DNA of 64,000 bases from Aotearoamyces nothofagi. Its lineage: Eukaryota; Ascomycota; Leotiomycetes; Leotiales; Tympanidaceae. The notes under the pieces were generated by a model. The model was not told where the DNA came from. It saw only the letters and a program-made list of their open reading frames with translations, and did not search any database. Below, one piece after another: positions 1 to 20,745 of this stretch. The position numbers were made by a program, and so were the translations under genes. The stretch's first letter is position 1; each line of letters starts with the position of its first letter. Location: the NCBI GenBank assembly GCA_015345905.1, contig JADDTR010000004.1, positions 1,240,001 through 1,304,000 on the forward strand, given 5' to 3'.

Positions 1-665
1 GAGTTATATAGATAGTAATATTCAATAATAATACTATTTGATTTCAATTATATTTAAAATTGCAATTCTATATTTTAGACTTCTAAACTCTTCTTTACTA
101 AGTTGTCTAGCTCTTTATAGAACTTAATTTATCTATACTTTAATTATTATCTAATATTCTCTTTTATCTTGGCCTTAGTATTGATATTTCTATCCTCTAT
201 ATTTATTGTAATACTTACTATATAAGAGATAAGTCTAATATATCTATCTTATCTTCTAATATCTCTATTTATTCTTTAATATCTCTCTCTCTCTTCTCAA
301 TTGACTTATTAATATCCTTTATACTATATCAATAATCGATATTGCTCTATTCTCTTAGTATCTTCTATTTAAATCTATTAAAGTACTTAACTATTATAGA
401 TTTAGTAACTGTATTAAGGTTTATCTGAGCTCTATAATATTTATATAGATTTTATATAATATTGAAAGTTCTTTCAACTCTAGAGTCAATAGCTTTTATA
501 AATAATTATTAGCTCTTTATATTACTATTTAATATTACTGTTTAGTATTACTGTTTATATATCTAGAATAGTAAGAATATTATAAGCTATCTATATAATA
601 GAAGAATAAGAACTCTCTAGTCTCTTCTATATAGTTAAGACTGAAGTTTTAATATCTATAGAATA
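1..665. repeat. AT-rich, RIP-like degenerate block
   Basis: Almost pure A/T with C surviving mostly in CpT and G in ApG; TpA is very frequent and CpA rare by eye. This is the expected footprint of repeat-induced point mutation on an old repeat. No open frame survives. The block ends sharply near 665, where a pyrimidine-rich leader of the next gene begins. The original repeat family cannot be recognised, and the block continues beyond the left edge of the window. Confidence 0.75.
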
Positions 666-843
666 AAAAGACAAAAGTAGATATTGTTCTGCTTTGCCTC
701 CCAACTTCTTTCTCAGTCCTCTCGATTCTGTTGCTCTTTTCCCTCTCCTCCCGCTAGACTCTCCTCGACATCTGATTCTTTTACCTCTATTTTGATCCTC
801 ATCATCGTGATCAGCCGGCTCCACATCCATAGGTCAAGTCAAC

Positions 844-3305
844 ATGGTACGACGTCAACCAGATGCGGACTTCTCGTCCGACGACGATACCGATCCTGAG
901 AGCTGCTTCGACACTGAAAATGAGGACAGCGACCATGATACAGATCCTACAGATACAGATACCGACGTCGAACTAGACGATTCAGACGTATCGTGGCTAC
1001 TTAAACAGGACAATGTCCATCCGCCAGAATATTACATCAATCAAGAAGATGAATTTGACGAAGCCGAGTTCGATACGGAGGACTACGGAAAGAACACTCT
1101 CACACTCTTTAATGTCATAAAGGATCGCTGGTATCGGTAAGTGCATATGCCCTCCCATCGTTATGTGTGGTTGCATCGCTAATTAATCTCCCTTATAGAT
1201 ACTGCAAATATGTCCGGAAGGATCCCGAACGATCGATTAGAGCCATCACCCTTCCCCTTCTGTACAGCTTCTTCGACTGGATGTTGGATCAGCGCCGGGG
1301 AAAGGGGGGAAGAAGGGTGTGCGGCATCAAGTCATCTAGCACCCTCGGCACATACTGGAAGATATTTCGGCTTATATATGAGGAGGCCAACGACTCGAAA
1401 ATCCATTCTAAGCTTAACCGCAAGATGCACCGAGTAAGTAGCCGTTGAACGTTCCTCTACCCTCCTTAAATTGTGAGTTAGGACTGACACTTGTGTTTCT
1501 TTGCAGGTGCTCCGAAAATTGGCCAAAAAACACAAGTTAAGTAACAAGAAACGGGAGAAGATGGCGGTTGACGTCGAAGACCTTGTGGGAATCCTCCAAA
1601 TCAACTTGACTACAACGAAGAAGAAGTACGGACATGGGCGCCACCGCATACAGCTTGCCCTCTTCCACCATTTCGCTGGATTCTCTGCGAACCGGCCCCA
1701 AGCCGTCCTCGACCTTTGCTACCGACACATTGTCGTCTCCTTACTCCGCGACCCCGAAGGTGGTCCGCACCGGATCTTGCTTGAGTTTACCTACAAGTTC
1801 ACAAAGCAGTTTCTAGGTATGAAAGATGCATAAGTTTACCATCCCCTGCCCCTACCCAATGTCGTAAAGTGTTTGTGATTAAAGGCAGCATTAACAAGAC
1901 TAGTAATACCTTTCCAGTTCCTGAAATCATCTTTGATCCCTCCCTACTTCTTAGTCCCCATGTTTTTCTACTGGGTCTGCTTTTCGCCGATAAGGCCTTT
2001 GCAGCTCCGAACCTTACATCTGCAAAGCAACTCAGCAAGTTAGACATACGACCTGGTACTAATCAGCTGTCATTACCGCTAAAACGTAGCATGGACAACA
2101 TCCCTATCTTCCGCAAGTCAATTACAACCACCTATGGCACAGAGATCTCGCCGGACGAGCCCTTGCCATACACAACCCTTTTGCCGTTAGTTAAAACGCT
2201 CGGCGTCTTAACTGGGTTCCTCCATATCCACCGCCCCTATAATCTCCGATATGGCGCAGCCAATGCATTTAATAAGAGCGGTCTGTCTCACATCCTCTCA
2301 ATCTCTTTTGTCAGATATGCTAACTAATAGATCACAGGCGATATAAGTGACGCCCTGCAAAACATGATGATGCAGCACGCTGACATGCGAACGTTTATTC
2401 AACACTACCTTAAGCGGCAGGTTACAGCAGACACTGCTGCCATCGTACGCGGCCTAGAACCTCAATACGAGCTAATGTGGGCAGCGGGTAGGATGAGTCG
2501 TTGGATCAATCCAGACCGGCCCCAAGAGCTTACAGAGGAGGAGTCCCTCTCTGTCAATAATGACCCTTACATTCGCCAACTCCTTGCCCAGCGAGAAGAA
2601 TTGAAATTCCGTTTTAAACGCGAGGCTACGAAACAGCCTGTATACCAACTCCTCGGCCGAGAGATCTTTAATGAGAGGCAACGAAAAAGATCATCACACT
2701 TGAAGCAAGTGCAAAGCAAGTGGGACGAGGAACACCCTGTTGAGGAGATTGAACTGCAACTCTCGGGCCTCAAATTTACCGACGATGTAAAGACTACCTT
2801 GGATTTATCTGATGAGATGCCTCCGGCACAGAGACGCTTGGTTGAGACAGTTATGACGCTCCCGGGGATAACCTTGGAAGAGGAATTTTGCCGCCGCAAC
2901 GCTGCCATCGATGCGGTTGCTGCGTATTGCAAATTTGAGGAGGGCGGACCTGTCCGTGGGAGGAAACCTGCGAGCAAGAAAAGCGTGCTCCTGCCCTTAA
3001 ACGCTGATCCACAAGTGATAGCTGCCATAGCTGAAGAGCAAGCGCTGAGTGCAGCTATACTATCGGTGTTCAAAGAGCACAGACCTCTTATATGCTTCGT
3101 CTGTCTCGGGCGGAAGAGTCTCCCGTTCGAAAAACGCGTGTACAATTTTGCAAGTCCTGGAGATCTAACTAAGCACTTCAAACGGAAGCATTTGTCCCAC
3201 ATTGAAGAAGGGCAGAGGCCCGAGTGCAAGATTTGTCCGATGCAGCTTGAGCACAAGATGCATTTTCAAAGACATGCTCAGGAGATACACGGTACCGTTT
3301 CCTGA
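844..3305 (+). CDS. DUF3435 (captain-type) tyrosine recombinase with C-terminal C2H2 fingers
   Basis: Five exons, 844-1136, 1199-1433, 1507-1816, 1885-2280 and 2338-3305, join into an uninterrupted 733-residue protein. All introns are GT-AG, 57-73 nt, and the last has a TGCTAAC branch site. Residues 11-80 are acidic and low-complexity. A tyrosine-recombinase fold follows: Arg239 in ANRPQAVLDL (box I), Lys273 or Lys276 in EFTYKFTK (beta-hairpin lysine), Tyr398-x-x-Arg401 in YNLRYG (in place of HxxR), His425 in MQHADMRT, and Tyr435 in QHYLKR as likely nucleophile. These spacings match lambda-integrase-type enzymes. Two zinc fingers end the protein: C664-C667-H691-H696 and C708-C711-H724-H729. 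The family (DUF3435, 'FluG domain') includes the captains that mobilise Starship elements. A captain normally lies at the 5' end of its element and is transcribed inward, so cargo would be to the right. The start is the first Met of the acidic region. Whether the enzyme is active is unknown. Confidence 0.85.
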
Positions 3306-3972
3306 TGTTCCAATAAACTACTACTAGCCCTGGGCTACGTAGCTGTATTTCGTCTTCATTCATCAAGATTCCCTAGTCGCCAGTGGTGGTAATCAAATTC
3401 GGTCCTTAGACGCTAATTTGTCTACAGCACCGTTTTCAAAACCTGATTGTATACCCAGCGCGCATTGCTAAATTGCTTGGCCGTGGTTTCCTGTTCTAGA
3501 TTTATGACTTTTCATATCAGGCGCTGATTGGCGCCGACATTACCTTTTAAAATACCCTTTACTATGCAGCCATTCTTATTAGCAGCTTTTAGAAAATATA
3601 CTTTAAAAACGAAGTCGATTAACGTTATTTGAATAGCGACTATGTACAGATTCACGAGGCCAAAGTGAGCTCCGATTTGGAATCTAACAGATCGGGAGGA
3701 AGAGAAAGGGTTGGATGCTGATAAAAATAGATTTGTGGCGCGCCACTTGGGCAGCAGTGTTTCGCTATTTTAAGCGCGTCCCGCCAGGCAGTCTAACTCA
3801 TGAATTTATAACAGTAAGAACATGTTTGTACTAAGGCTGCAAGATCAGAGGCCTTGAGAAGGGAGCCTATCTCCAGGTATATTTCGCAGGGAAGGCAGTA
3901 AAAGGGTATGTCAGCCGGTATGTCAGCCATCATGTACACTGATTGGTGTGAGAGGTTATTGTCGCGATATAT

Positions 3973-4083
3973 ACACTATCGACCGTCGGTAAGTCCGAGA
4001 TGCACTGGGACAAGACAGTGCGGCTCTGGGACGCGGCTATAGGCACGCTGCAGCAGGCTATTGCACTTGCCAAGTTTAGGTAG
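3973..4083 (+). pseudogene. Relic of a WD40 repeat, NLR (NACHT-WD40) type
   Basis: One short frame reads WDKTVRLWDAAIGTLQQAI and then runs into a stop. The WDKTVRLWDAATGTLQQ pattern is the repeat core of HET-E/NWD-type fungal NLR proteins, where such repeats come in near-identical tandem copies. Here only one recognisable copy is left, without NACHT or effector domain, so it is a fragment. NLR genes are frequent Starship cargo, which fits its place next to the recombinase, but a single repeat is thin evidence. Confidence 0.5.
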
Positions 4084-4325
4084 CGAGCGCTGAAGCTCCA
4101 GCGCACCCCTAACTAGCGCTGTGTGAAACTTGTATCGGGTGGTAAGGGCAGAGAGCGAATTTCATTAAATACGGTTTAGCTCGTAAATAAAAAATAGAAA
4201 GAAGTTGATCTTTGTTAACGTTAACGTTATCCTAAAAGCAATGAATAGTAGTGGTCAAATTGTAGTACGGGATTTTCGCCTTACAGGGGTGCCGATTAGT
4301 TATGTTGTTGCCTTAGGCAAACATA

Positions 4326-4450
4326 CTTCTCTTCAGAGACTTATCTTCAGAGCTATTTTCTCTTCAGATGTATTTTCTCTTCGGAGCAATCTCTGAAGAG
4401 TCATATTCTCTTGAGAGAAACATCCGAAGAGACACATTCTCTCCAGAGCC
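4326..4450. repeat. Array of self-complementary CTCTTCAGAG-like decamers
   Basis: About eight variants of CTCTTCAGAG occur in 125 bases, spaced roughly 15-20 nt. Some are in direct orientation (TTCTCTTCAGAG, TCTCTTCGGAG, TCTCTTGAGAG, TCTCTCCAGAG) and some inverted (TCTCTGAAGAG, TCCGAAGAG). Each unit is nearly palindromic (CTCT..AGAG). Short A/T-rich spacers separate them. The array is not part of any gene. It could be a protein-binding array, a small foldback element or a transposon end. Confidence 0.65.
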
Positions 4451-4463
4451 ATCGCTGGGCCTA

Positions 4464-4515
4464 GAAAATCTCACGTGATTTCCGGAAACTTAACTTAAGT
4501 TAGCGTGAGAATTTC
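4464..4515. repeat. 12-bp inverted repeat with palindromic centre
   Basis: The left arm GAAAATCTCACG (4464-4475) and the right arm CGTGAGAATTTC (4504-4515) are inverted copies with one mismatch. They enclose two smaller palindromes, TTCCGGAA and TAACTTAAGTTA. It lies directly right of the decamer array and just outside the phosphatase promoter. A foldback element or the end of a mobile element is possible; no target-site duplication could be assigned. Confidence 0.55.
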
Positions 4516-4720
4516 CACTTAGGTAATCCATCTTGGCGGCTCTGCCTCGAGCACCCAAATCTCCCTCCCACTTCTTCCACCTTTTCCGCCTTTTCGCTCC
4601 ATCATTCCACTATCCGCTCAATGTAGGCTTGTTTTTAAGCTGCAATCCTCGCTTCGCCGATTCATCGCCCGGTCTAATGCAGCAGCTGGCTCCGTCTCTA
4701 TAATCCACCGCACGATCAAC

Positions 4721-5296
4721 ATGTCGAACCCGTCAATCACCAAGATTGCCGATCAACTTTACCTTGGCGATAGCAAGAGTTCTCGTGATCGCAAAATCCT
4801 CGTTCAGCACAACATCACCGCCGTGGTCTCTCTCAGTGGGGGGCAATGGGTCCATTGGAGCCAGCCCTGGTATAAGGAGATCATCCCTGAAGGCAATCAC
4901 CTGTTCAGAAAGTGCGAAGACAGTATGACGCAAGACCTGCTGCCCGAGCTCGCCGACATATGCGACTTCATCAAGCAGCGCCTGGATTCCGGTTCTGTTC
5001 TCGTCCATTGCGACCGAGGTGTATCACGGTCTGCCACGGCCGTGATCGCCTATCTCATGCAAACTTATCAGTACGACCTCTCCACCGCCTTGGCCTTTGT
5101 GGGAGGAAAGAGAAGGATCAAGCCGAACGAGAACTTCAAGGAGCAGTTGGAGGTATGGGGAGCGGTTGGGGGCAATGTCTGGGCAGCTCGGGGAGTCCCC
5201 AAGCCAGAATATGCGGTTTACCTGGCAAAGAGGACAAAGAGATTGCAGGAGGCAGGGCTGACGGGAAACGAGCCAGTCGGCGTAACGTCCTTATAA
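4721..5296 (+). CDS. Dual-specificity protein phosphatase
   Basis: A single-exon protein of 191 residues covering a complete DSP catalytic domain. The P-loop is HCDRGVSRS at residues 96-104, with nucleophile Cys97 and phosphate-binding Arg103. Asp67 in RKCEDSM is the likely general acid. The downstream RIKPNENFKEQLEVW segment is the usual DSP helix. The enzyme should remove phosphate from Tyr and Ser/Thr of protein substrates, probably in cytosol or nucleus since no targeting signal is visible. Small stand-alone DSPs are common in filamentous fungi and the substrate cannot be told. The start is the first ATG after a pyrimidine-rich leader. It sits within the island bounded by AT-rich blocks, so it could be mobile cargo or host DNA; nothing in its composition decides this. 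Confidence 0.85.
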   Translation: MSNPSITKIADQLYLGDSKSSRDRKILVQHNITAVVSLSGGQWVHWSQPWYKEIIPEGNHLFRKCEDSMTQDLLPELADICDFIKQRLDSGSVLVHCDRGVSRSATAVIAYLMQTYQYDLSTALAFVGGKRRIKPNENFKEQLEVWGAVGGNVWAARGVPKPEYAVYLAKRTKRLQEAGLTGNEPVGVTSL

Positions 5297-6118
5297 CTAA
5301 CGACCTACCTTAAATGTACCACGCCTTACGTGCACAGTCAACGCCTGTCTTAATCCTTCAGATTGCGGTGCCCCAGATATCCGACTTCTTGTGGGAGGCT
5401 CTCTCTTGTCCTCTCTAGACAGTTACCTGTTCCCCAGTATCGTCAGGAATCTACAATAATGGTGGACGCGTTTTCGCTCTGATCCATTTTGGCCCCGTAA
5501 ACACGATGCCCCTCCGAATTTTCCTTACAACAGCCACCTTCCTCCCACCCAGGAGCGGAAGCCCGTGGATGGCCTTGCATGAGCTTCTGGAGGAATGCGC
5601 AGAGCAAGGATGCGTGAAGCATTACCGGGACTCCTTTACCCGCTTCAAAACTTTTATAGACACTCAGAAGAACATTACTTGTACAAACCTAGCCATGAGG
5701 ACTCGTCTGACAATGTGGCAGAGCCGGTGCTAAAAAAAGGTGGAAATACTAGGAGAGATACAACAGCTCGAAGGCCGGTTATAGACAGTCACCATGTCAC
5801 GCAAGGATCAGGATCACATTGGGAGTTTGTATACCCAAAAGTTGCTGTACCATTGTTCAACTATGGACGACATAATTGAAAAAAAGGAGAGTGTAGCCGG
5901 AGAATGGCTTCTCCAGAGTGACAAAGCATGCCGCCAAATACTAGAAGACGGCGGATGTGTGGCGAACTGCGTGAAGAAAGAAGCATGGTTGGGAGTGGAG
6001 TGATAGTTGGAAAGAACGGAACAGTCGGCGGTGGCAGGGCGAGAAAAAGCCCTCGGTGGTGACGGGACGTGGACCGAGGAGATATTTCATCATGAATATA
6101 TGGAGTCCACCTCTTTCT
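5297..6118. other. Intergenic; short frames of doubtful coding value
   Basis: Three overlapping plus-strand frames of 69-94 codons (5506-6003) lie here in different phases. One reads as amphipathic helix, but no family is recognisable and no splice model joins them convincingly. They may be remains of a decayed gene. Confidence 0.4.
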
Positions 6119-6511
6119 CTATATGCTGTTCGTGCACCTTAAAGGCTCGAGACCGGGCTGGTCGTACCGGAGTCTTTGTCTAGGGTGGGGTTCATCTGTT
6201 AGTATTCTTCTCCCGTGGTCAGGAGCTGGGGGTAGCAACTTACTGCTCATGAACTTATACCTGACACCTCCATACTCATCGGCAGGTCCTGTACCGCTTG
6301 CGGCCAGCCTCTTGAGCCAGTTTACAAGGCCCGGCGCCCTGAGGTTGACGCTCTTGTCGCCCGTGCCTGTGTGTTGGCCCCAGAGCGACACGGAGCCCCA
6401 TTCGACAAGTCTGGCTGGTGTCTCACCGATCAATGTCGCATCGGACTTGCTGAACTCGTTCGGAATGCCTGCATTAACGAGTTGTTTGCATTCCATGATC
6501 AGGTTGGACAT
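6119..6511 (-). CDS. Small two-exon hypothetical protein
   Basis: Exons 6511-6244 and 6195-6119 are separated by a 48-nt intron with a GTAAGT donor and an ACTAACAG acceptor end. The join gives an open frame of 114 residues starting MSNLIMECKQL and ending CTNSI. The 5' exon has balanced composition and could be genuine. I recognise no family. There is no signal peptide or membrane segment; the protein is basic and rich in Gly, Leu and Ser. It lies at the right rim of the recombinase island, next to the AT-rich block. It could be a lineage-specific gene, transposon cargo, or a remnant of a longer gene. An in-frame Met at 6556 would add 15 residues. Confidence 0.4.
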   Translation of the reverse strand: MSNLIMECKQLVNAGIPNEFSKSDATLIGETPARLVEWGSVSLWGQHTGTGDKSVNLRAPGLVNWLKRLAASGTGPADEYGGVRYKFMSSKLLPPAPDHGRRILTDEPHPRQRLRYDQPGLEPLRCTNSI

Positions 6512-6579
6512 GTTGGGCAGAGATGATGTGTGGTTTGGTTGTCGTCGAAGGTGCACGTGCTGGGCTGACTGGAGTTGCT

Positions 6580-8690
6580 TAGCTATAGAGCATTACTATA
6601 AGTTACAAAGAAAAAAGAGAAGAGAGCTCTATTTACAAAGTAACTCAAGTCGATTCTTAAAGAAGGTAAAAAGAGAGAAATCAAAGAGAGGAATTGACTC
6701 TTATATATCCCTGACTAAATACAGGGGTTACTACTATTCTTTGTTGTCAATAGATAGAGGCTTTCTTTATTGTCAATAGTATACAACTTAGTATTATAAA
6801 ACCTTTTCTTTGTTTGATTGCTGTCTAAAATAAGCAATTCACTAAAAGAAAGCAATAGCTGTCTAAAATAGTAAATTGCTTTTTCTTATCTATAAAGAGA
6901 GCCTTCTTCTCTACTTCTATTCTCTTCTTCTTTTTCTTCAAGATCTTCTCTCTTCTACTAAAGTAAGTATAGTAATATATAATAGTAATATAGAGTATCT
7001 AGATTTTAGCTGATCTGATAGTATTACAATTTATAATACCTTAGATAAAGAAGTCATCTAAGAAGATCAGCCTTTAAGACCAAGGTAAATATACCCTCTA
7101 TCTCCTCCCTCTATTACTTCAGACTATTAACCTTATATTATAGACACTTATACTACTTTATATATCTCTTTGTATACTAAAGTATTAACAAACTGTTGAT
7201 AGTATAATATTGCTAAGGCTGTATAGAATTGAATCTATAAGGCCAATAAGCTCTACTTCTATCTAAGGCCTTCTAAGGTCTTAGACAATTCTTGCTCTAT
7301 AAAGGTAGATAGTAAGTAATCCTCTGTCTAATATATATAATTACTAATTAAGAATAGTCTATACTCTACTTGAAATTAGATACTACCAAAAGGAGGTTAG
7401 ATTCCTTCTATCAAAATTAGTATTCTAGTATCTAGTTTATAAAATCATCTAGAATATAAAAATAGACAATAGTCTATAATACTAGTCCTCTACTATTCTA
7501 GTATTCTAGAAGGCTAGTAAGATATATTTGATCTTGTTCTTTAAGAGTAAGTTGAATCTCTCTACTAATTAATAATAAAATAACTAATAAATTCTAGCTT
7601 CTAATATATATATAATCTATACTAAGTGTATTACTATCTAGAGTAAGGATATATAGTTGGTAAAGTAGTTTTATACCTCTATAGTAGTCTAAGAGGTCTA
7701 TAATTTGTAAATAAAAATTTTTTAACTATAATTCTACTTTTGTAGTTATTAATATAATAGTAACAGTAAACAGTAATATAATAACATCTAGAATTGTAGA
7801 TATATTATACCTTTAAAATTCCTATATTTTCTAAACAGTAATATTCAATAGTAATATAATAATATATAAAATCTTAAACTATTCCAATTTTAATATAAAT
7901 AATCTAATAATATATTTAATTATTATAGACTGTTTTCTAGACTGGACTGTTTTGTTCTAGACTGAACTAAACTATTTATAAATAGTTCAGTTCAGTTTAG
8001 AGATTTCTAGACTAAACTATTTTAAAATAGTTTAGTCTAGTCTTACTATCTAAATAGTCTATAATATTATAATCTAGACTAGACTATTAATATCAATCTA
8101 GTTCTAGACTGAACTATTCTGAAATAGTCTAGTTCTATTTTAGAAGAAATAGTCTAGTCTATAAAACAGTCTATAAATAACTTTTAAGACTAGACTAAAC
8201 TAAACTATTGACTAGTCTATAATAATCTATATAACTATAATTGATAATTAATAATAACAATTCTAGAATACTATACTATATATATAATAGCAATCTAATA
8301 ATCTAATATAAATTAGAATAAATATCTCTTTATATCTAATATCCTTTAAACTTTATTAGTAACTATATAATATTCTAAACTATATAAATAAATTATATAA
8401 GATATATTTAATATATATAGAGTCTAAATATATTATTCTAAGATTAAATAAATATTATATTTATAGATAAGGAATTAACAGATTAAAGAAATACTATACT
8501 ATCGACTAGAGATAGACTATCTCAGAAAGTAGAAAAAGAGAGAATTGCTTTTACTGAAGCATTTATTTAACTGAATAATATAGTATACTAAGTTATACTA
8601 TACTTTATATAATAGATAGAAAGCAATATATAGAAAGTTAGAAAAATAGTATATTTACTTGTACAGATAGTTGTGTACAACTTCTAGACA
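6580..8690. repeat. AT-rich, RIP-like degenerate block
   Basis: About 2.1 kb of extreme A/T content with frequent TpA, rare CpA and no coding frame. The first 200 bases (6580-6780) are less mutated and contain a TATATATCC box and short direct repeats, as in a promoter-bearing end of a retroelement; I cannot name the family and treat it as a fossil. The motif GCTGTCTAAAATA occurs twice near 6820-6870. Long palindromes cluster at 7920-8230. Confidence 0.7.
8007..8040. repeat. 34-bp perfect palindrome in the AT-rich block
   Basis: The sequence from CTAGACTAAACT to AGTTTAGTCTAG around the centre TTTTAAAA is a perfect 34-bp inverted repeat without spacer. A second, 18-bp perfect palindrome centred on TTATAA lies at 7970-7987. 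Many further copies of CTAGACT/AGTCTAG lie between 7920 and 8230. Confidence 0.85.
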
Positions 8691-10646
8691 GCTCCGAATA
8701 CAAAGGCTGCGTATAGCATTGCTTGGCTAGTACTATATGTCGCAGGTCCTATACAATGTATGTTTGCAGTAGGTCCACCACTATCCTCAGCCCCCTCCCT
8801 AGACAACCATGCCGCCATCATTAGCAATCCAGGAACGACAATTCATCCCGACGGAGGAGGGCACCACCACCCCATCTCACCAGGGACATGACTCAGTCCT
8901 CTCAACGTCCAGCGTGTCAAGAAAAGGCCTCGGACAAATAAGCATACATAGTGGATGCACTCGCAGCGTCTCGTCCTCGTGCAGAGAGGGCGCTCACTAC
9001 CACAGCACAGCCCAGCACCCGTAAGCCACCATATCAACCACAGCACACCCATCTCACACGAAGACACCGAGTTACCGCCGCCAGCCCTCCCCTCCTCTCT
9101 GCCCCCCCATCCCCATCCCAGTTCTGGTATCCAGATTCCAGCCGCCTCCCTGCACATCGCCAAGCCCATCAGCCGACCCTGAAAATCATGCGATTTGAAA
9201 GGGGGGGAGGGAGGGAGCCGCCGCCGCCGCTTTTGGATTTATACTGTAGCATATCACATACGCAGCAAGACGCAGCACCATCTACCCGCAGCTTCCATAC
9301 CGTGCATAAGTAGGTTTCCACAACACCCCTCCCCTGGAGATCCGCCGAACCGAGCCCGACCGTGCCGCAACCTATCAGTGCGCGCCGGAGGCTTTGCTCC
9401 TAAATGAGAAATACGTGAAATGCGCGATGTTTTTTTTTTCTTCCCTGCGGGGGACGGGAGGGGACGGGGCAGGGTCGTGCCAGGGCTTGGACCTTGTTTT
9501 GGCTTTTCTGCAGCGACCCCTGGAATAGACGGGTGTGCTGGTGCTGTTCGCGGTGGAGGCGAGCGCGTGCAGATGGGGCGCGTGGATAGGGGTCGGCGGG
9601 AATACGGATAGGTACTCACGGCAGGTATAGGCTGTATGTAATGTGCATGTCAGCTGTGGATACGAGTGTCTTGGCTGCCGTGCTGTGTGCGATGTGGTGC
9701 TGCGAGTATGAACTGTGCCGCCGTGCTACCCTGGCCGGATCTCGGGCTTTGACGGTGGGAAGGATGGATCGGATCTGATCGGTTCGGTTGGAAGCGTGGC
9801 ACGGGTTAGGGATCTAGGTAGATAGATTGAGACGAGATGAGATGAGACGAGAGGGATGAGATGGGAGGAAAGGAGATAAATTAAGAAATAGATAGAGAGA
9901 CAAGCTGTAGATCGATTGGGAAGTTTTTCTGGAGAGCGGGAATAGTGATGCCTCTGAATGAGTATTGAAGATGGAGAATAGAAAATCGAGACTATACGAT
10001 GGATATAGGCATATTAAATAATATTAGAAATTATTAGAGACTACATACAAAACAAAAAAATATTTGACGATATACTGTATCATCTATATTATATGAATCA
10101 TATTATGCAATACAGCAACGATCACCAAGATAAAATACACAAACACCAAAGAGCCATTATTTTATCCTAGATCTTGCTCTTGGTAAACCATCTCTCACAG
10201 ATTTACTATTATCCTATATATACCCATTGTAAAATACCATTCGAGTGAATTAATTCTAGTCAAGCCTCAGTCCTCAACGACTATCGAGCATTACAAACCC
10301 TATATCCTAGCCCCAAGCACTGCAGAGGAGCCGTGCCTCTCTTCCTCTTGGGATGCGGAAACGTACTGCAACTAAACTGTCTAGAGATTGAACAGGGAGA
10401 CGACATATAAAGACTAATCGTCTACCCGTCCCTACCATGCTTTATTCATGACGAGTACGCTGGAGTGGTGAAAGGGACTAGATTAATTCGATGAAAGTGG
10501 CGAGACGGAAGGGAGATTGGCTGGACTGGTCTCGCTGCTTGTAAGGACGCTGCATTGTTTCCATAAGATCATAGTATAGGACGAGGAGTTTCAAGAACCT
10601 TGCCTGACTTCACACTGTTCTCATCTCTATAGTATACCATTCTGAT
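8691..10646. other. Gene-free interval right of the AT-rich block
   Basis: No gene can be supported. It contains a CT/CA-rich stretch (8770-9150), a run of CCG repeats at 9220, a G-quadruplex-like tract (listed separately), a GATGAGA-type purine repeat at 9820-9890 and an A/T-rich part (9950-10260). The frames of 60-120 codons here are low-complexity and overlap on both strands. Confidence 0.5.
9449..9474 (+). other. Candidate G-quadruplex tract
   Basis: Five G runs of at least three (GGGGG, GGG, GGGG, GGGG, GGG) with loops of 1-2 nt follow directly after a T10 tract and a short linker. The pattern satisfies the common G3+N1-7 quadruplex rule. No gene lies nearby on either side. Confidence 0.6.
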
Positions 10647-13600
10647 CTAGTTAGCAAGAGATCCATCCTCTGGCTCCCCACCCTTATCAGCTGCGCCGTT
10701 CTCAAAGACTGCCTTCCCGAATCTCGGAATGTCGAATGTCCCTTCGTAATCTACAACATGTCCATATATATACCATCCAAAACCCTACAAACCAAGAGAG
10801 GGCCGCAATCTAAAACCAAACCCAACCGGCTCGACCGGCCCTTCCCATTTTTCAAAATATACTGCCGGACCTTCGAGATCTGGTGTCTAGTCTCGGCCAA
10901 CAACCCCGTCATATCTAGCTCTACATTTGGGTTATGTTTTGCCGCGCCCCTGATCGCAGCCTGCATGACATGAAAACGATTGACGTTATTCCCCAACAGC
11001 ANCCGTTCTCAAAGACTGTACTCCCGAATCTCGGAATGCCGAATGTCCCTTCGTAATCTACAACGCGTCAATATATATACCATCCAAAGCCCTACAAACC
11101 AAGAGAGGGCCGCAATCTAAAACCAAACCCAACCGGCTCGACCGGCCCTTCCCATTTTTCAAAATATACTGCCGGACCTTCGAGATCTGGTGTCTAGTCT
11201 CGGCCAACAACCCCGTCATATCTAGCTCTACATTTGGGTTATGTTTTGCCGCGCCCCTGATCGCAGCCTGCATGACATGAAAACGATTGACGTTATTCCC
11301 CAACAGCATAGCAAATGCCGTGATCGTGCTGCCCTCCTTTTTATATCACTCAATCGATACACGGTCTAGTTTGGGGTATCTAAATAACAGTCCCTGGATC
11401 TCGTTTGCGTAGCCGTGATATTTGAAATGAACCTGCCGATCTGGGGAGTAGAGGCTGTCGAAATCTTGGTGGGTGAGGTGGGGGATTTTGCTTTCGAATA
11501 CCATCAGGTCGGTGATCTTTACGACGCGTACTCGTGGGGAGGGACATCTTCAATGAAGGATAGCAGCTGCGGTTACGACTTCGAGCATCATTTCTGCACC
11601 GGTGCCGACGGGGAAGACATCGGGAGATAGGCCGAAGTCGGTGCTGGCGAATTTCCAGACGCTGGCACCGGGCTTGCAGTGGTTTTGGCTTCGTCAACGG
11701 AGTGGAAGGTGAGGACTGGATGTTTGAATCCGACCCTCAGGTTTACGTGGTCGACGGAGCGCAGACCGTGGGCGAGGATCAGGAGAAAGGTGTTCTGGTT
11801 CAGTTAGTGAGTGCTGATTAAGGAGGACAGAAGTAGGCATAAAAACTTCATCTCCATAGACTACTTACAGAATCTAGTAGAATATAAACACGCGCAGCTT
11901 TCAAGTTCAATACTACACTAATGAAGGAAGAGTTTTCATGAGAAATTCAATTGTGTTCCTATCGAGTCCATGTACTTTTTTATATGTAATTTAAGATTTG
12001 ATATGTCAAATCTCCAAGTAGTCTCACGAGCCATCTTGCTGACTTTGCTGTACTGGGCCATCATGGTATAGATGATACCTAGGAAACTCTTGTAACGTGG
12101 AAAGACAGCAGTCCGTCCAGTGAGAGTATTTCCTGAATGAAATTAGCAATGTTCAAGACTGATTATAGATGAATCCAGCCTTATGGGGAACATTTTCGTA
12201 GAGGCTATGATTTACCTTGCATGAATCCCTGACAAGTATGTTCACTCAAGATTTCAACAACCCTCCCCCTTTCTATAAGAGAATTCATCCTACTAAAATT
12301 TACAGCCAGTGTTTTTAAATAATAAATCGAGCTTATTGCTAACAAGTTTATCTGGAGAGAATACACTAAGAGACTTTTGATTCTCGACAAGAGCCTGATC
12401 AATAAGATCAGTAATAGTCTTCATGCAAGAAGCCTCGAAATCCTTTCCAACTACGAAATCTCTCTATTCAGGTACCTTGAGGGGTCCACAACTGCTGTAT
12501 GATTCGGCAATTTGGCCAAGTTTCTTGTTATCATCTTTCGGTATGATTCGTCTGATGGAATCTGACATCACCAGTTTCGGTGAAGAGTTGGGATGGGACG
12601 TAAGAGTGAAACCACTTCTGAAGCTGTTCAAGTTGTTCTTTGCTAGTCTTTGCCTTCATCAATGGAACTTGATGTGCAGGAAAGATCCTGCCTCCGTCGA
12701 CGATCTTTAGTCCGCTCCAACCTTTTGGAGTGCCCTCTTATGATAACTGGCCAACGAGGTTTCCAAACTGGCTTCCACTTCTAGGAGCTTTCCTAATCTT
12801 ATGAATCTCATCGTATGCCCACTGGATACTGGCTACCATATCACGGTCAATATCTTCAAGGTCTTCCACAAACCTGACTTGGCATCCATAGCTCGTAAAA
12901 GGGGTAACCAGTTCCTTGTCATCCATACACTCGAATATCGACGTCTCCGAGACCTTGAAGCCATTAACATGGAAGATGGGAATAACTACACCAAACACAG
13001 CAGGGTCTATATATTTTACGCCATGCCAAGCAGCAGCAGTTGGACCAGTCTCGGACTTGCCATCGCCATCGCCAACAACACACGCAATAATCAAGTTGGG
13101 CTTGTACATAACCGCAGCGAATGAAACCGAGAGTATATATCCAAGCTTACCACCTTCATGGATAGCACTAGGAGTTTCAGCATCGACATTAGTTGGGAGC
13201 CCGTGAGGTGTCCTGAACCTAGTAATCAAATTGTGTAGACCTTGTTTGCCCCTGCCATATTATGGGTAGAAGTGTGCCATACTCTTTTCGAGCTAGAGAG
13301 ATGCTAGAATAGCTGGGACACCATGACCTGGACCAGCGACGTATAGAATGTCTGCATTTGTATCTCGTTGAAGATAGTTAGATGTGCATATACAGGTGTA
13401 AGGCTAGGACATGCATCTCAATGACCAAGACAAGGGTTACTCGATAGTTTGAGAAGTCAACTTAGAATAGGCAGTGTGATAATACCTAGAAGCCGAGGTT
13501 TGATGTCATTTAATGTGAGATCCCGCTCTAGATGTGCATTATCACCGAGGAACATCATGGCTTGTATTTGTCAGCAGATACCACCTGAGACTATTTTGGC

Positions 13601-13790
13601 CTGTACAGTGAGCTAAATTAATTTGGCTGACTTACCAGCAGCAGTTTAATTACTGGTTCTGCGAAATTTCTCGAGATATTTAAGACCAGCATCATTCAAA
13701 TTAATCTTCTCAAGATGGACGAGGGAAGGACATCTGGCACATTGGATGGCAGTGGTCGAGGGTACGGCCTATCAATCCTTCTCTAGGCAC
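10647..13790 (-). pseudogene. Decayed phosphoketolase (Xfp) gene
   Basis: Fragments in all three minus frames follow the phosphoketolase family from end to end. They include RPYPRPLPSNVPD and FLGDNAHLERDLTL (N-terminus), LYVAGPGHGVPAILASL, the TPP-domain segment NVDAETPSAIHEGGKLGY with GDG...SETGPTA (12738-13229), CQGFMQGNTLTGRTAVFP, CKPGASVWKFASTD, and the C-terminal RFHVMQAAIRGAAKHNP ending in a stop at 10647. The intact enzyme (about 800 residues) splits xylulose-5-phosphate into acetyl phosphate and glyceraldehyde-3-phosphate. Here the start position (13790) reads GTG. Two conserved Trp codons are stops: in GHWGTCP at 13418-13420 and in SLWLEGS at 13293-13295. Several frameshifts and further stops occur. 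Both Trp losses are G-to-A changes, as RIP would cause, and 11800-13600 is AT-enriched compared with the 3' part. Acetate kinase lies divergently 1.6 kb away. Confidence 0.9.
10696..11308. repeat. 306-bp near-identical tandem copies flanking a single N
   Basis: Positions 10696-11001 and 11003-11308 are two copies of the phosphoketolase 3' end, separated only by an N at 11002. About eight differences all fall in the first 95 bases; the remaining 210 are identical. The unequal spread of differences and the N suggest overlapping contig ends that were not merged, rather than a biological duplication. Confidence 0.8.
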
Positions 13791-15403
13791 TTTGGCTTTG
13801 ACGTGGTAAGTTTGATTTAATGTTGGATGTTTGGTGATCAAAACATAATGCTATAGCATCTGTGGTGGAGGTATGATGTCAACGGGTTTCAAACGAGCTC
13901 GATCAATGCTGATTGCACGGATTACCGCCGAAGACAATCAACCTCAACAATCTGATTACTGTCTTGCAAGATCTATGGGCCTATAAAGAGCTGATTGCGA
14001 AAAGAAAAAGAAAAGGAAAAATCGTAAAGACTCACCAGGGAGTGGGTGGAAATTGAACGTCTACTCATTCTTTCAGCAGTGGCTCGGTATTGGCGTCAAT
14101 ACTCATCCCTGAAGAGTATTCGGAGCTCTCAACCTTGGTAGCCCATTGCCTATGGATCTGGACTGGACGGTGGCATGATATCAACCTCCCCATAACTGGC
14201 TCTTTGGCGTCCAGTCCACTCGCATATTTAGCTGGCAGCTTACGTCAATTGGCATCTTCTACCTGTGTCCAAATGAAAAGAAGATACATGGCAGTGACGT
14301 AGTCTCTACCGAGGCGGTTTATGAAATCAATGGCACACCTGTGAACGCCAAGATGGCCCATTTTCCAATCGTAAACTGGCTGCGCAAAAACAGACCTAAA
14401 CCTCTGAAATCCGCAAGGCTTATCCAGAAGAAGCCCGTCTATGATAATACTGAATTTGGCCTGCTTAGCCCAGCTCGTTCTTCTTTTATAAAGATTCCCT
14501 GGCCGTTGCAGTGATTTCTCGGGTCGCTTGCAAGCCGTGCCGTCCGTTATTTTGCAAGCTACCGGATTACGGAAACCGAGGCTAAATGCCAAGTTGAACA
14601 CCGGGGCCCCACACCCTCCTGAGAACACTAAGCACATCGGTGCGTTCAACTGTATCGATGCATCATAAGATAACCTCCGAATCTTCTGCAAATTTCTGAG
14701 AACGTCCAGAAGAGGAGCTTCGACTACGTGGCCAGTTCTGGGCACTTGAACCAGACTGGTGGTTTGGATATAAAGTTGCAGCGCTGTGGCCAGCTATCTT
14801 CAACGCTGCTCCAGTTCGCTTGCGAGGCGGGCATCCAACCTTGCATTTGGCCGAGTACAGTTGCCGCAAATTGACCGACCCAATGCTCTGATCTGCGATT
14901 ATCCTGCCGCCAAAGCGTCGAGTTGCACATTCCTCCCAGGGAGCTGAGCGCCGACGGCCTCGCTGATAGATATATTGTATTCCATGCGGGGACAGAAATC
15001 GACGAGGTTGAAGAATGATGCGGTCGCGCTGAGGTTGGGACGGAGGTGAGGACGGAGGCCGGAGGCCGGAGGGCTCAGCGGAGGCACCGGAGGGTTCAAC
15101 GCCGCGCGCGCGAGTCCTCCTCTTGTCGTCCTGCTGGGCCCCAAACCCGCCCCGACCGCCCAGACAGGCCCAGCTTACGGATGGCCATGCTGGGGCCCCA
15201 GCCCGCTAAGCTATCCTCCGCGATCATGATCACGACAGCCTCGCGGGTGGGATGATCTTTGTATCAGAGGCACCTGGCAAGATACCAGGAGACTTTGCCC
15301 TCAATCAGCTCAGTAGGCTCAATAAAAACTCTGCGAGAGCCCCAAGCCCTTCGCAGCGCAGCACAGTGCCGCACTGCCCAATTCCCACTTCTGCAAGTCT
15401 TTC
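13791..15403. promoter_or_regulatory. Divergent region between phosphoketolase relic and acetate kinase
   Basis: The two genes are transcribed away from each other, so this 1.6 kb once held both promoters. A 166-codon minus-strand frame (14245-14745) shows no recognisable family and no splice context. A GC-rich, purine-rich stretch lies at 15040-15130, followed by a C-rich segment before the acetate kinase start. No regulator site could be identified with confidence. Confidence 0.45.
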
Positions 15404-16714
15404 ATGATGCCAAAAATCATTCTATCCATCAATGCAGGCTCGAGCTCTGTTAAAATCTCTGTTTACACCGCTGAGGACGGAAAGGCGCCGCTGCGGGTGG
15501 CCGAGACCCAAATCGACGGCCTGACCGCTCCGCCGCCTCAGCTGAAGTATATTCGAGGCTCAGAACTTATTGTAAAGGACAAGAAGCTTGACCCAAGCAT
15601 CCAGAGCCAGGACGATGCGTTCAGGTACTTGTTAGATGAGCTCGTCAGCGACGAGAAGCTGCCGCAGATTTCAAAGAGGGAAGACATCACCCACGCCTGC
15701 CACCGGGTCGTTCACGGCGGCGACTACAAAGAGGCCAAAGTCATCAACGAAGACACATGGCATCACTTGGAGACACTGACAGACCTTGCACCACTGCACA
15801 ATGCTTCTGCCCTCGAGATCGTGAAGTCGTGCGTCCGGGAATTGCCCACGGCAACGAACGTGGCGTACTTCGACAGTCAATTCCACCACTCTCTTCCTGA
15901 ACACATCCGCACATATCCCATCGATCAAAAAATTGCCAAGCAGAACCAGCTGAGAAAGTATGGGTTCCACGGAATCAGTTACTCATTCATCACCAGATCG
16001 GTCGCTGAGTACCTAGGCAAGCCACAGAGCGAGACAAATATCATCGCATTACATCTAGGATCTGGCGCAAGCGCCTGTGCAATTCATAAGGGCAAGAGCT
16101 TTGATACGTCCATGGGGCTAACACCGCTTGCTGGTCTGCCGGGTGCAACAAGAAGTGGCAGTATAGACCCTAGGTACTTCAATCTGAACATCTACTTCAA
16201 AACATCAAGAGCTTGACTAACAGCTTCTAGTCTCGTCTTCCACTATGCTAGTAATGTTGGGAAACTGGCTCCCTCTTCGACCTCCTCCCTTCACATCTCT
16301 GAAGCTGAAGAGATCCTAAACAAACAAGCCGGCTGGAAATCGCTAACTGGAACTACAAACTTTGGCATAATCGCCGCTTCTGATGATCCTAAGATGAAGC
16401 TAGCATTCGACATCTTCGTCGATAGAGTCTGTAGCTACATCGGCTCCTACTACGTGACATTACACGGTACAGTTGATGCATTAGTCTTCGCAGGAGGAAT
16501 CGGTGAGCGGAGTGCCGAGCTCCGCAGAAGGGTAGTATCTGAATGCGAGTGCCTAGGCTTCGAGATAGACAACGAGAAGAATGGCAAGAAGATCGAATCG
16601 ACCGTGCAGGATGTAGGGAAACAGGGGGCCGCTCATCGCGTCTTGGTATGTGAGACCGATGAACAGTACGAGATGGCATTTGGCTGTGCCACGGACCCAA
16701 AGATTTTCGAATAG
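15404..16714 (+). CDS. ackA: Acetate kinase
   Basis: Two exons (15404-16173, 16231-16714) with a 57-nt intron bearing a GACTAAC branch site give 417 residues, close to the usual length of about 400. Family motifs appear in order: ILSINAGSSSVKIS (signature 1), HRVVHGG with the substrate Arg, APLHNASALE, FDSQFHHSLPE, YGFHGISYSFI, HLGSGASACAI, DTSMGLTPLAGLPG followed by ATRSGSIDP (signature 2), and FAGGIGERS. It should convert acetyl phosphate and ADP to acetate and ATP in the cytosol. In fungi its partner is phosphoketolase, often encoded next door, as here, but that neighbour is a pseudogene. The frame is intact and motif residues are conserved, so the enzyme is probably functional or only recently freed from selection. 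Two adjacent ATGs start the frame; the first is used. Confidence 0.95.
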
Positions 16715-19700
16715 ATGTAGGTCTGCTGCGACTCTTGAATCGTAGAACACGATATAGAAGGCCCATTGCTGTATTTAGCTTTTTGTTTTTAGCATCTTTC
16801 CTAGGACCCCCCGTTCAACATGTTCTCTCCAATCGCTGCGTTATTAAAAGTTCCTCTGGTACACACCCGTATCTTCTCATCCTTATCTGCTGACGGTTCT
16901 CTGCTTCGGAGATTCGTTGTAATATCTATGATAATGCGGTCACCTATTACTGGAAGGCCTCGGCATCGGCGGCGGGTTATTCGATATGAGAAGTAAGCGG
17001 CTCATGCCATCGAATGCCAATGTCTTTTCATATCTCGTTTGCTGTTTATGGGCAAGCTGTTGATGGTCTTGGATCAGCGGTGGTGTATACTTGGTGCCTG
17101 ATGACCTTTATTGTCTTGCTTACATCCTCCATGATAATATCTCCTTCTTTTCACTTTATTCTCATGTTATCCTTTTCCTCGATAGCTACCATAGCTAGCG
17201 ATATCTATCTCTATGCTATTATACTATACTCACAGGCAAAGTATCTGCAAACCGTTCGTCGGATCTCGTCGATTTGTCTATGTCATCTTTCGAAGCTGGA
17301 GCAATGCTGTTGTCGTACTTTGACAACAAGACTAAGTCCGCGACGAAATTTCGAATTAATGCCAAGTTCTTGGGTCCTAGCTGCTAGCTGTTCACTGTTG
17401 CTGCTATGTAGTTCTGGTGTTATCTTTAAATAGCAATGAACTTATTCTGGTCTTGGTGAACTCCTCTTATGAACGTGAACACTGTCCTGATCGGCACAAG
17501 ATGCCGACTAGAAGTCTCTCTGCCGGCATTTCTTTTTCCCAGATCAATAGATATTGACTGCTTCGGCGACTAAGATATAAATCTGCGAAGAATTCTTCAT
17601 AGAAACAGAGTCCGTTCTTCATGAAGGTGCCTGTTCTAGTGACATGGTCCAAACCGACCTACCTTGCAAAACACGGTTTGGTTGGCTCGTTCCATCTTAG
17701 GCCGCACGGCTTTGAAATTCTCAGCAGCTTGTGGTACTGACTAAGTGCCATAGTAATATTGTATAGCCTAGATGGAGGATTATATAGTTCCTGTAACTCT
17801 GGTTGGAGGATTGTTGTTGTTATATAATCCTTGTTGCAATTTGGCACAAAGTTGTAGGCTGCAGTGTTCTGTAGATGGCGTTGCTTGCTTGCGAGCTTAA
17901 GGCAAGGCTTAAGTTTACAGGTTGGTAGGAATACCACTTAAGGCGACACCCGCTACTACTGTTTAAGGAATTCCTTGACTGACTGACAGGTACTGGCCCT
18001 CAGATTTTAACAATCCTGATATTCTACCAGTCTAGACAAACTCCTTTTGTAAAAGTTATCAAGAAAGGTTCTAGTATAATATTTACTACTTTAATAGTGG
18101 TAATTATATTCTCGTTCCCTGGGGACAGAAAGACTGCAAAGGTAGCGTTTAAATAGTATCTGATAGACCGAATAGTTATTCTATAAGACATAATAGGAGA
18201 ATGATACGTGCATCTCGAAATATAGGTTTACCGGTTACTGGACCCACGGGCAAAAGACTCCTGCAGAAATAACTCGGTATTAATTCCGTTGACATCAAAT
18301 CGAACAGGCATTTATTCTTGCCATTAGTGGAATCTCAAAACCGCAAAAATGTCGTGAGAAGAACCAAGTCGGGGCCGGAGACACAGACTGCCGAGATGCA
18401 GCCATGACAGGACAAAGTGGGGGCTGGGAAATACCAAGATCTAAAGGCTGTAGGACTCGACAGGGGAAAGATGCACGATATTCGCAAAATGCGGTTATTT
18501 TTGAGTTGATAATGACCAAGAAGTCGGGTGCGCGCCTGGCGCCTTGATGACGCCAGTATCGGGGGTCAGACAATGCCCGACGAGCAGCCCAGGACCTGTA
18601 ACTCACCGCCCTACAGACAGGGCATGGCTTCCTTCGCGGTGCGATACATGCTGAGGCCAGGGATCGTAAGGGATCATCAAGGATCAGTCAACGGGGTCGG
18701 CGGGGAAGCTGTCGGTTCTGGACGGGGTTGAAACTGCTCTGTTGGATTTTTGTGTCCGAATGTAGGTATGACGCCGCTCCTGGTGGCAGTTCGGGGTATT
18801 TTCGGATGGACTTGGGGGCCTTCTACCGGTGGGAATCGTGGGAGGGGATTCGGAGAATAGCGGTAGTCGCTGGGTATTGGCACGTTTCTGTGGTTGCGTC
18901 CGTCTATCGTAGCATACCTCCTTCCCGCCCTCATGCTGGAGCATGCGCCTGGGTGTTGGTGGCTGCGTTTTGAACGGTATTATCAAGAACGACGGAGTCC
19001 GCAGCCAATCGTGAAGTCCGTGGTCTATTAATCGTCAGTACTGGCCGCCTCAGGTGTATTCTGCGACGCCAGTTGCTGCTTCTTTGGAGTTTGAGATCTG
19101 GGGGGGATCCGAGATCACAACGTTTGTCGGAGGCTCGAGGCACGATCTGGAAGGACAGAGGCTGGCGTTATGGCTGCGAAGTTGGAGATGTCGCTCATGC
19201 TTCACACGTGGAATGAGGACAGGCAGATGTCGTGTGGGTGTACCCTTTGCAAGATGTGGCATGTAACGTATCCATGGTACTGCGAAGTACCCGGAGGTGC
19301 CAGGAACGTCGGTATCCGACAGCCAGAGAAGCAGGCGATGGGTGCTGCCAACCTGGCTAACAACGAGCAGCCAACTGGAAGACATGGAGGTTAATACCTT
19401 GCCTTGAATACCCTGATGCGCATAGACTGGCACGCTCGGATTCCCATATTGGCGTCGAGATGCCTATAGCGCAGCATATATATAGCATACGGCCAGCTTA
19501 CAGCATACAGCATACAGGCAGCGTACGGCGTCCAGTATCCAGTATCCATCATCTAGCATCCTCCAGCATACTGCATATAACGTACAAGACCTAGTATACT
19601 GGCCTAACTAATGCAGAGTATCGGATCAGCATCGACCTACCTACACGTATTATTATACAGTACGCACACGACAGAATACTCATACATACGCTGTAGGTCT

Positions 19701-20745
19701 CGGGGCTCATAGCATGGCATGGCGCGGCATGCAAGTATTACCGTATATCTATCTGTCCACTCTCTAATCTGTTGGATTTGTCTGTTGCAGCTCTACTTTC
19801 GTATAGTATACTCCGTGGGCTACATGTCGTGCTGTATCTGGCCCAGGCCACTCGCTATGGGTACTTATACTCGCACTGGCACTCCGCCCCCAATGGTGCT
19901 GCTGTTATGCATACAGAGATCTTTCACAAGCTAATGTCGTCTATCTATAGTTAAGATGGTCCTTCTCCTCCTTGCACGCTACATTCAACCATGCCACCTA
20001 GACCACGGAATACTTCGCGCTTCTGGTCTTTAGCACAGTGTTTGAGGAGAGCCGATACTGGTGCACAGGTGCAGAGTGGGCCCTGGTTTCCTTGGCCTGC
20101 CGGCCCTTGAACGTACAATCATTCCAACCAATACATCACCAGCAGTTCATCGGGTCTTATAAGGCTGAAATGCACACTCCTGCCGCCCCCATCATTGCTG
20201 CCGCTACTCGCATGAGCGTCCTCCGCGCGTGAGCACCGAACCGCCTGAGACGACTGTCGCCCGTGTCTTGATAGCCCTTCCGACCACGACCTGCCTTTCC
20301 TGGGACTTTTACTGGCACTGGACGGGATCAGATATCGTGTCTATTCTTTCCTCTACGCAGCTCATATCCCCGCTACCTGCGTAAACATCCACACGGAAAG
20401 ATAGATAGTATCCCGTCACGAAGCATTCTATCTATATTCATTTTAGACGGCGAAAGAGCTAGTAGCTATGCATGCATTCTGTCACATGGGCCCAGACGCA
20501 CACGCATCAGTTGACAGTGGTTAACAGGGTGCGTAACAGGGCTACAGTCAAGAAGCTCAATGCACTGGACTTTCGACGCAGCCGCCTAACCGCCTTGCCC
20601 CATCATATATCAAATCCAGGATCCCCCATCATGAATTGACCCTTAATACTACTTGTCACTGCCATTGACACTCATGAAGCTCTTCCTCCCAACTGTCGTT
20701 TCTTTACCATTAATTTCCTATACTGCTGTAACTATCGATGCCAAA
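16715..20745. other. 4-kb interval without a supported gene
   Basis: Short frames occur on both strands but none has family resemblance or convincing splice signals. The 17014-17433 frame is hydrophobic by composition only. Around 18000-18240 the sequence is A/T-rich and may be an old repeat. From 19470 to 19610 the motif AGCATAC or close variants recurs many times (AGCATATA, AGCATACGG, CAGCATACAG), a loose microsatellite. C/T-rich leader sequence precedes the transcription factor. Confidence 0.45.

Follow-up and report, generated by a model that had tools for sequence, protein, structure and literature searches.

The window analysed here is a stretch of 64,000 nucleotides (C4:1240001-1304000) of a genome that was searched over 25.5 Mb and 55 contigs and whose gene content and RIP-like repeats suggest a filamentous ascomycete. 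Close to the start of the window, a captain-like DUF3435 gene and a phosphatase gene lie together in an un-RIPped island that interrupts a RIP-mutated hAT-like repeat, with AT-rich, RIP-like DNA flanking the captain-like gene on both sides. The features, numbered from the first letter of the window, are as follows:

1..695, minus strand, left part of the RIP-mutated hAT-like repeat (repeat-family matches)
696..6582, no strand, un-RIPped island interrupting the repeat, 5887 bp (junction mapping, composition)
844..1136, plus strand, exon 1 of the captain-like gene, acidic N-terminus (frame joining, gene finder)
1199..1433, plus strand, exon 2 (frame joining, gene finder)
1507..1829, plus strand, exon 3 in the 731-aa model, holding R239 and K282 (profile, relatives); in the 722- and 733-aa models this plus-strand exon ends at 1816 and holds R239
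1830..1903, plus strand, putative intron 3 of the 731-aa model, 74 nt, ATAAGT...CTAG, non-canonical AT-AG
1904..2280, plus strand, exon 4 in the 731-aa model, holding Y396-x-x-R399
2338..3305, plus strand, exon 5, with H423, the putative nucleophile Y433, two C-terminal C2H2-like motifs and the stop
4721..5296, plus strand, dual-specificity phosphatase gene, 191 aa, PF00782 at 80.3 bits (Pfam, open frame)
6583..8219, minus strand, right part of the same repeat family, terminus at about 8219 (repeat-family matches)

The spliced plus-strand frame from 844 to 3305 is open without a stop over five exons, and the joining of 844-1136, 1199-1433, 1507-1816, 1918-2280 and 2338-3305 gives a stop-free protein of 722 aa; the same span, with five exons and 722 aa, was returned by a crude gene finder that scores coding potential and had been trained with 264 kb of the same contig. 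Three lengths were obtained according to the choice of intron 3, namely 722 aa (1817-1917), 733 aa (1817-1884, the choice of the sequence-only reading) and 731 aa (1830-1903), together with a 732-aa variant carrying an AT-AC intron, the 731- and 732-aa models being based on comparison with the relatives on C13 and C14. The match to the DUF3435 profile (PF11917) spans positions 1-418 of 418, and all three models lie far above the cut-off of 25.8, with 444.9 bits for the 722-aa, 464.7 bits for the 733-aa and 473.4 bits for the 731-aa protein, and 469.5 bits for the variant. The earlier identification of the predicted product as a captain-type DUF3435 tyrosine recombinase is supported by this whole-profile match; of the 733 open codons claimed for it, the open frame stands and the length would give way to 731 aa, which the profile prefers.

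The comparison with the relatives bears directly on intron 3. The codons past 1816 read GGT ATG AAA GAT GC in C4, GGC ATA AAA GAT GT in C13 and GGT ATT AAG GAT AC in C14, the changes among them being mostly silent, and no GT is present in C13 where the captain-like gene has donor 1817. The putative intron then starts with ATAAGT (C4), ATAAAT (C13) and ATAAGC (C14), the frame resumes behind CTAG, CTAG and CAAG, respectively, plus one base and AAT or AAC, and the joined proteins of the three loci share LG-[MI]-K-D-x-N-x-F-P-x-P-E-I. The matches on C42 and C7 were too divergent for inclusion. Intron 3 of the captain-like gene thereby seems to be spliced as ATAAGT...CTAG. At 1830-1903 this would be a conserved non-canonical AT-AG intron adjoining the putative catalytic lysine. 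Fungi rarely have introns that begin with AT: in the table of one survey, 46 AT-AC introns stand against 208,522 GT-AG ones among stop-free introns divisible by three, and no AT-AG class is named (PMC7072748). If intron 3 is ATAAGT...AG, a gene finder built on GT-AG introns would join the catalytic domain of such captains wrongly, and the misjoin of our own gene finder at this intron would be an example of the problem.

The residues of interest in the 731-aa protein are R239, A242, K282, Y396, R399, H423 and Y433, with K282 present in this model only and missing from the 722- and 733-aa models; alanine stands three residues after the arginine, lysine 43 after it, and a YxxR pair is followed by a second tyrosine 37 residues after the first. 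The order of R, YxxR, H and Y had been read correctly from the sequence alone, with the numbering now moving from Y398, R401, H425 and Y435 to Y396, R399, H423 and Y433. Judged by this spacing and by the residues described in PMC12506042, R239, K282, Y396, R399, H423 and Y433 would make up the catalytic set, as R260, A263, K308, Y424, R427 and Y458 of the Sanctuary captain are matched there to R173, E176, K201, H289, R292 and Y324 of Cre, and the corresponding tyrosines Y381 and Y416 of HhpA are reported as necessary for function. The tyrosine in the first place of HxxR had likewise been seen correctly; it is no oddity and would be a pattern of the captain family, because both the Sanctuary captain and HhpA carry it in PMC12506042. 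The hhalign comparison of three captain rows with XerC, XerD, FimB, FimE and Cre produced one alignment, a weak one (probability 3.2, E 0.014), in which Y396-x-x-R399 falls on H-x-x-R; the sequence search of solved structures returned two weak matches and no recombinase. The C-terminal part carries CxxC/HxxxxH (C2H2-like) motifs, for which the Pfam zf-C2H2 score is below threshold (11.5 against a cut-off of 25.2 bits), and GCR1_C is absent among the four Pfam matches of the 722-aa protein at E <= 1.

Differential states of preservation were observed for the DUF3435 relatives. The PF11917 search of the genome returned at least 13 rows in at least six places (C4, C13, C14, C42, C7 and C9), of which C42, C7 and C9 hold partial, more distant matches, the one on C9 falling short of the cut-off. 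The two nearest relatives, on C13 and C14, are pseudogenes, colinear with the captain-like gene, with insertions at the intron places and with the CxxC/HxxxxH C-terminal motifs common to all three. C13 aligns with the captain-like protein in three pieces, at 41, 49 and 57% identity, and has 14 stops opposite codons of the captain-like gene; C14 aligns in two, at 31 and 39%, and shows 5 stops as well as a frame break next to the nucleophile position, where it has His. Both pseudogenes (C13:9294-11684 and C14:6574-8972) lie less than 12 kb from their contig starts.

The sole other DNA match to the captain-like gene in the genome is C13, at 64% identity. By codon position 1/2/3 the identities are 66, 75 and 45%, with 52% in the introns (722-aa exons), indicating that the captain-like lineage was under protein selection in the past; judged by these figures, such past selection leaves the locus undated. 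No overall C-to-T excess was observed in C13 against the captain-like gene (258 vs 263), which is in part at odds with heavy RIP of C13, and an excess was found in CA/TG contexts only (58 vs 26). The captain-like gene itself has a coding score at the 45th percentile of 49 predicted neighbour genes, and its composite RIP index of -0.39 is negative, yet above 47 of these 49 genes, hinting at slight RIP or at composition. RIP acts on repeated DNA, and single-copy DNA escapes it. Because genome searches with 3306-6600 and with the captain-like gene (844-3305) turned up no close second copy of the island, the intactness of the gene shows neither the recent arrival nor the selection on a solo captain that had been offered to explain it, since an un-RIPped single-copy island is expected at any age.

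The AT-rich DNA on both sides had been described as two RIP blocks, and both are present; they are, however, not independent, as they match opposite ends of a single repeat family and keep its order and orientation. The left part extends about 298 bases to the left of the window start, to its terminus at L026:9702. Match rows of the family, short and partial ones included, number 37 for the left part and 145 for the right part. Elsewhere the two parts are separated by 3163-3179 bases in six places (two on C11, one on C8, two on C4 and one on C42) and by 4076 bases on C53, compared with 5.9 kb at the window locus, where about 3154 bases of the middle are missing as measured by another copy on C4 (copy A). 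The parts at the window locus are non-overlapping and in register, and the two ends presumably derive from a single copy of the repeat. The sequence TAGACTRGY stands at the termini in 10 of 10 ends of five copies, the window locus included. The hAT dimerisation domain (PF05699, cut-off 21.4) was matched at 24.4 and 24.2 bits only at C37:150880-151038 and C37:151711-151869, both of which sit in copies of the left part of the repeat. A frame of copy A is hAT-like by eye; Pfam found nothing in copy A (L023:4751-10000) on three minus-strand frames with X at stops. Inspection by eye showed no 8-bp target-site duplication at the window locus or in the copies A, C8 and C4:250-256 kb; the C11 copy, one end of which borders on other repeat DNA, was left out. 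With none at the comparison copies either, this result is uninformative. A captain remnant within the repeat core was also considered and rejected, as a tblastn search of copy A with the captain protein returned a single match, at chance level (E 8.4).

No element ends had been identified in the sequence-only reading; the edges of the island are now located at 695/696 and 6582/6583. The captain-like ATG lies 148 bp inside the left junction with the gene pointing inwards, and the left junction is presumably the 5' end of an element. The repeat continues through the left junction in 19 of 25 rows and through the right one in 11 of 17, counting the query copy, and the window locus stops at both. 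A few other copies break nearby: C37:151588 ends 6 bases beyond the left junction, and the rows C37:3825, C22 and C11:3 (the last at a contig start) set in 40-45 bases beyond the right one. Composition changes at both edges, the outermost 148-150 bases of the island having a GC of 0.49 and 0.51 with 4 and 2 TA, against 0.23 and 0.32 with 29 and 17 TA just outside. Direct repeats at the edges amount to chance-level words, the best shared one being TGCTT, a length reached in 2292 of 5000 shuffles, and inverted repeats there are likewise at chance level (1813 of 2000 shuffles).

The phosphatase is the sole full-length match in the genome search, with four weak partial ones elsewhere, and no such gene was found beside the relatives in C13:1-20000 or C14:1-18000. 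Its coding score is under those of all 49 predicted neighbour genes, which says little for foreign origin because the comparison genes were picked by the same score; it could be an ordinary host gene. Two further gene predictions within the island (scores 2 and 1, one of them antisense to the phosphatase) were left uncounted for their low scores. To the right of the repeat, Pfam recognises phosphoketolase (12741-13259) and acetate kinase (15326-16213) genes, the only matches above cut-off from 19 of the 24 open stretches of at least 100 aa in 8700-21300, and one further open stretch within the island likewise gave none; lying side by side, they may be a pathway pair. The gene finder missed both the phosphatase and the phosphoketolase genes, so gaps in its gene list mean little.

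On balance, we lean towards an orphan captain-like DUF3435 gene, probably still coding, in a small remnant of a DUF3435 element that inserted into the hAT-like repeat and later suffered a loss, and this is the history we prefer. The protein would bind DNA through its C-terminal C2H2-like motifs like other captains, Y433 would cut with the aid of R239, K282, Y396, R399 and H423 if the presumed activity holds, and the strands would be rejoined without a DDE step. An element with its recombinase 148 bp inside the 5' edge (695/696) would have landed in a hAT-like repeat copy; later, the far part of the element and about 3.15 kb of the repeat would have been removed, presumably in this order, leaving the captain, the phosphatase gene and two repeat ends. 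Some results count against parts of this history. A clean insertion would keep its target, so the loss of 3.15 kb counts against simple insertion; the edge repeats at chance level, the 5.9-kb size and the confinement of DUF3723 matches to C21 and C11 count against insertion of a Starship-like element; and the other repeat copies breaking near the junctions count against a clean picture.

Among the other histories, one in which the captain and phosphatase genes were resident or earlier, and two hAT-like copies of the same orientation inserted on both sides and lost their inner ends, is unlikely, if not markedly so. The family is common and often fragmented, many of its 37 and 145 match rows being partial, and shared orientation and complementary order are possible by chance, but the parts at the window locus are in register without overlap, both outer termini are present, and left and right identities are similar to C11:32.9-38.5 kb (89/88%), C8 (87/88%) and C4:250-256 kb (82/82%); they are less alike for C11:38.7-44.2 kb (81/84%) and C53 (83/88%).

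It is rather improbable that repair after excision swapped the hAT-like transposase core for a 5.9-kb filler, creating a composite non-autonomous TIR element. The outer termini were kept while a core of about 3154 bp was replaced, as is typical of TIR elements with an exchanged interior; against this, no second island copy, as donor or transposed, appeared in the searches made, and the repeat parts are heavily RIP-mutated with the island clean near both edges. Distinctly improbable is the joint proposal of a TIR element with its core exchanged for captain and phosphatase plus an AT-AG intron behind the catalytic lysine in three paralogues. A true composite would place an intact Starship-type captain, the enzyme of a different class of transposon, inside a hAT-like TIR element. 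ToxhAT/ToxTA is likewise a TA-flanked TIR element with unrelated genes, situated inside a Starship (PMC12506042), and differs in that the cargo of a composite at the window locus would include the captain. A solo recombinase domesticated for a host role and maintained by selection is very unlikely: the frame is open while the C13 and C14 relatives have their stops, and the coding score is ordinary for the region, but the catalytic residues are kept, which are reported lost in the domesticated, Crypton-derived DUF3504 genes of animals (PMC3212892), and the gene lies in a repeat nest.

Compared with known systems, the preferred remnant shares with the Starship captains HhpA of Hephaestus and Sanctuary a whole DUF3435 domain and R-A..K..Y-x-x-R..Y at like spacing, as well as C-terminal DNA-binding-like motifs and a gene near one junction that points inwards, the Sanctuary captain lying about 350 bp from its 5' edge (PMC12506042). 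Starships differ in being 15-700 kb long (PMC12134995, PMC12289983) with direct repeats, found in 19 of 20 curated elements, 18 of 20 having TIRs (PMC12153272), whereas here the island has 5.9 kb, two recognised genes and no nearby DUF3723; elements below 15 kb are dropped as captain indels in PMC12153272. With its 5.9 kb, its single copy as far as searched and its chance-level repeats, the island is not a recognisable Starship. A Starship extending further right is not supported, as the repeat resumes at 6583 and is followed by the phosphoketolase and acetate kinase genes; the left-junction search, whose query held the first ~380 bases of the missing core, gave no rows downstream on C4. Fungal Cryptons (CryptonF) are similar in being small elements encoding a tyrosine recombinase (PMC3212892); their proteins have GCR1_C, for which the window protein has C2H2-like motifs instead, and their 6-bp terminal direct repeats were not seen at the island.

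Orphan captain-like tyrosine recombinase genes are the fitting category, being captains without a recognised element. DUF3435 genes are more usually solo and some captain families insert in other transposable elements (PMC12134995), and orphans far outnumber Starships, with 10,628 captain-like genes against 143 Starships in 2899 fungal genomes (cited in PMC12289983). The gene is one more of the many known orphan captains and not a new system. It is set apart within this category by lying inside a different transposable element with both junctions located, which offers a model of how it may have been stranded when it entered, or was exchanged with part of, another transposon and a loss came after; these junctions and the possible AT-AG intron are what the locus adds to an ordinary orphan.

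Several minor observations were made around these loci. The degraded DUF3435 locus at C42:110461-111326 lies about 0.5 kb from the hAT-like repeat family (C42:111820-113465), and three of the six DUF3435 places (the window locus, C13 and C42) are within about 1 kb of this family, which counts for the preferred insertion into the repeat. The DUF3723 family often accompanies Starships. Its genome matches are found only on C21 (518565-519376) and C11 (4036-5004, with 20 stops), none near the island, and these are possible remnants of Starships elsewhere in the genome. To the left, 20 kb and more away, lie genes for what we take to be glucan synthase, Prp31-like and Clf1-like proteins. The DNA that precedes the window by about 15 to 2 kb (L025, L026) is GC-rich, at 0.54-0.71 per 500-base bin with one bin at 0.47; this stretch holds one predicted gene and adjoins an AT-rich block. 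Between the two island genes, a run of diverged short repeats is present at 4320-4450, around TCTTCAGAG/CTCTTCGGAG.
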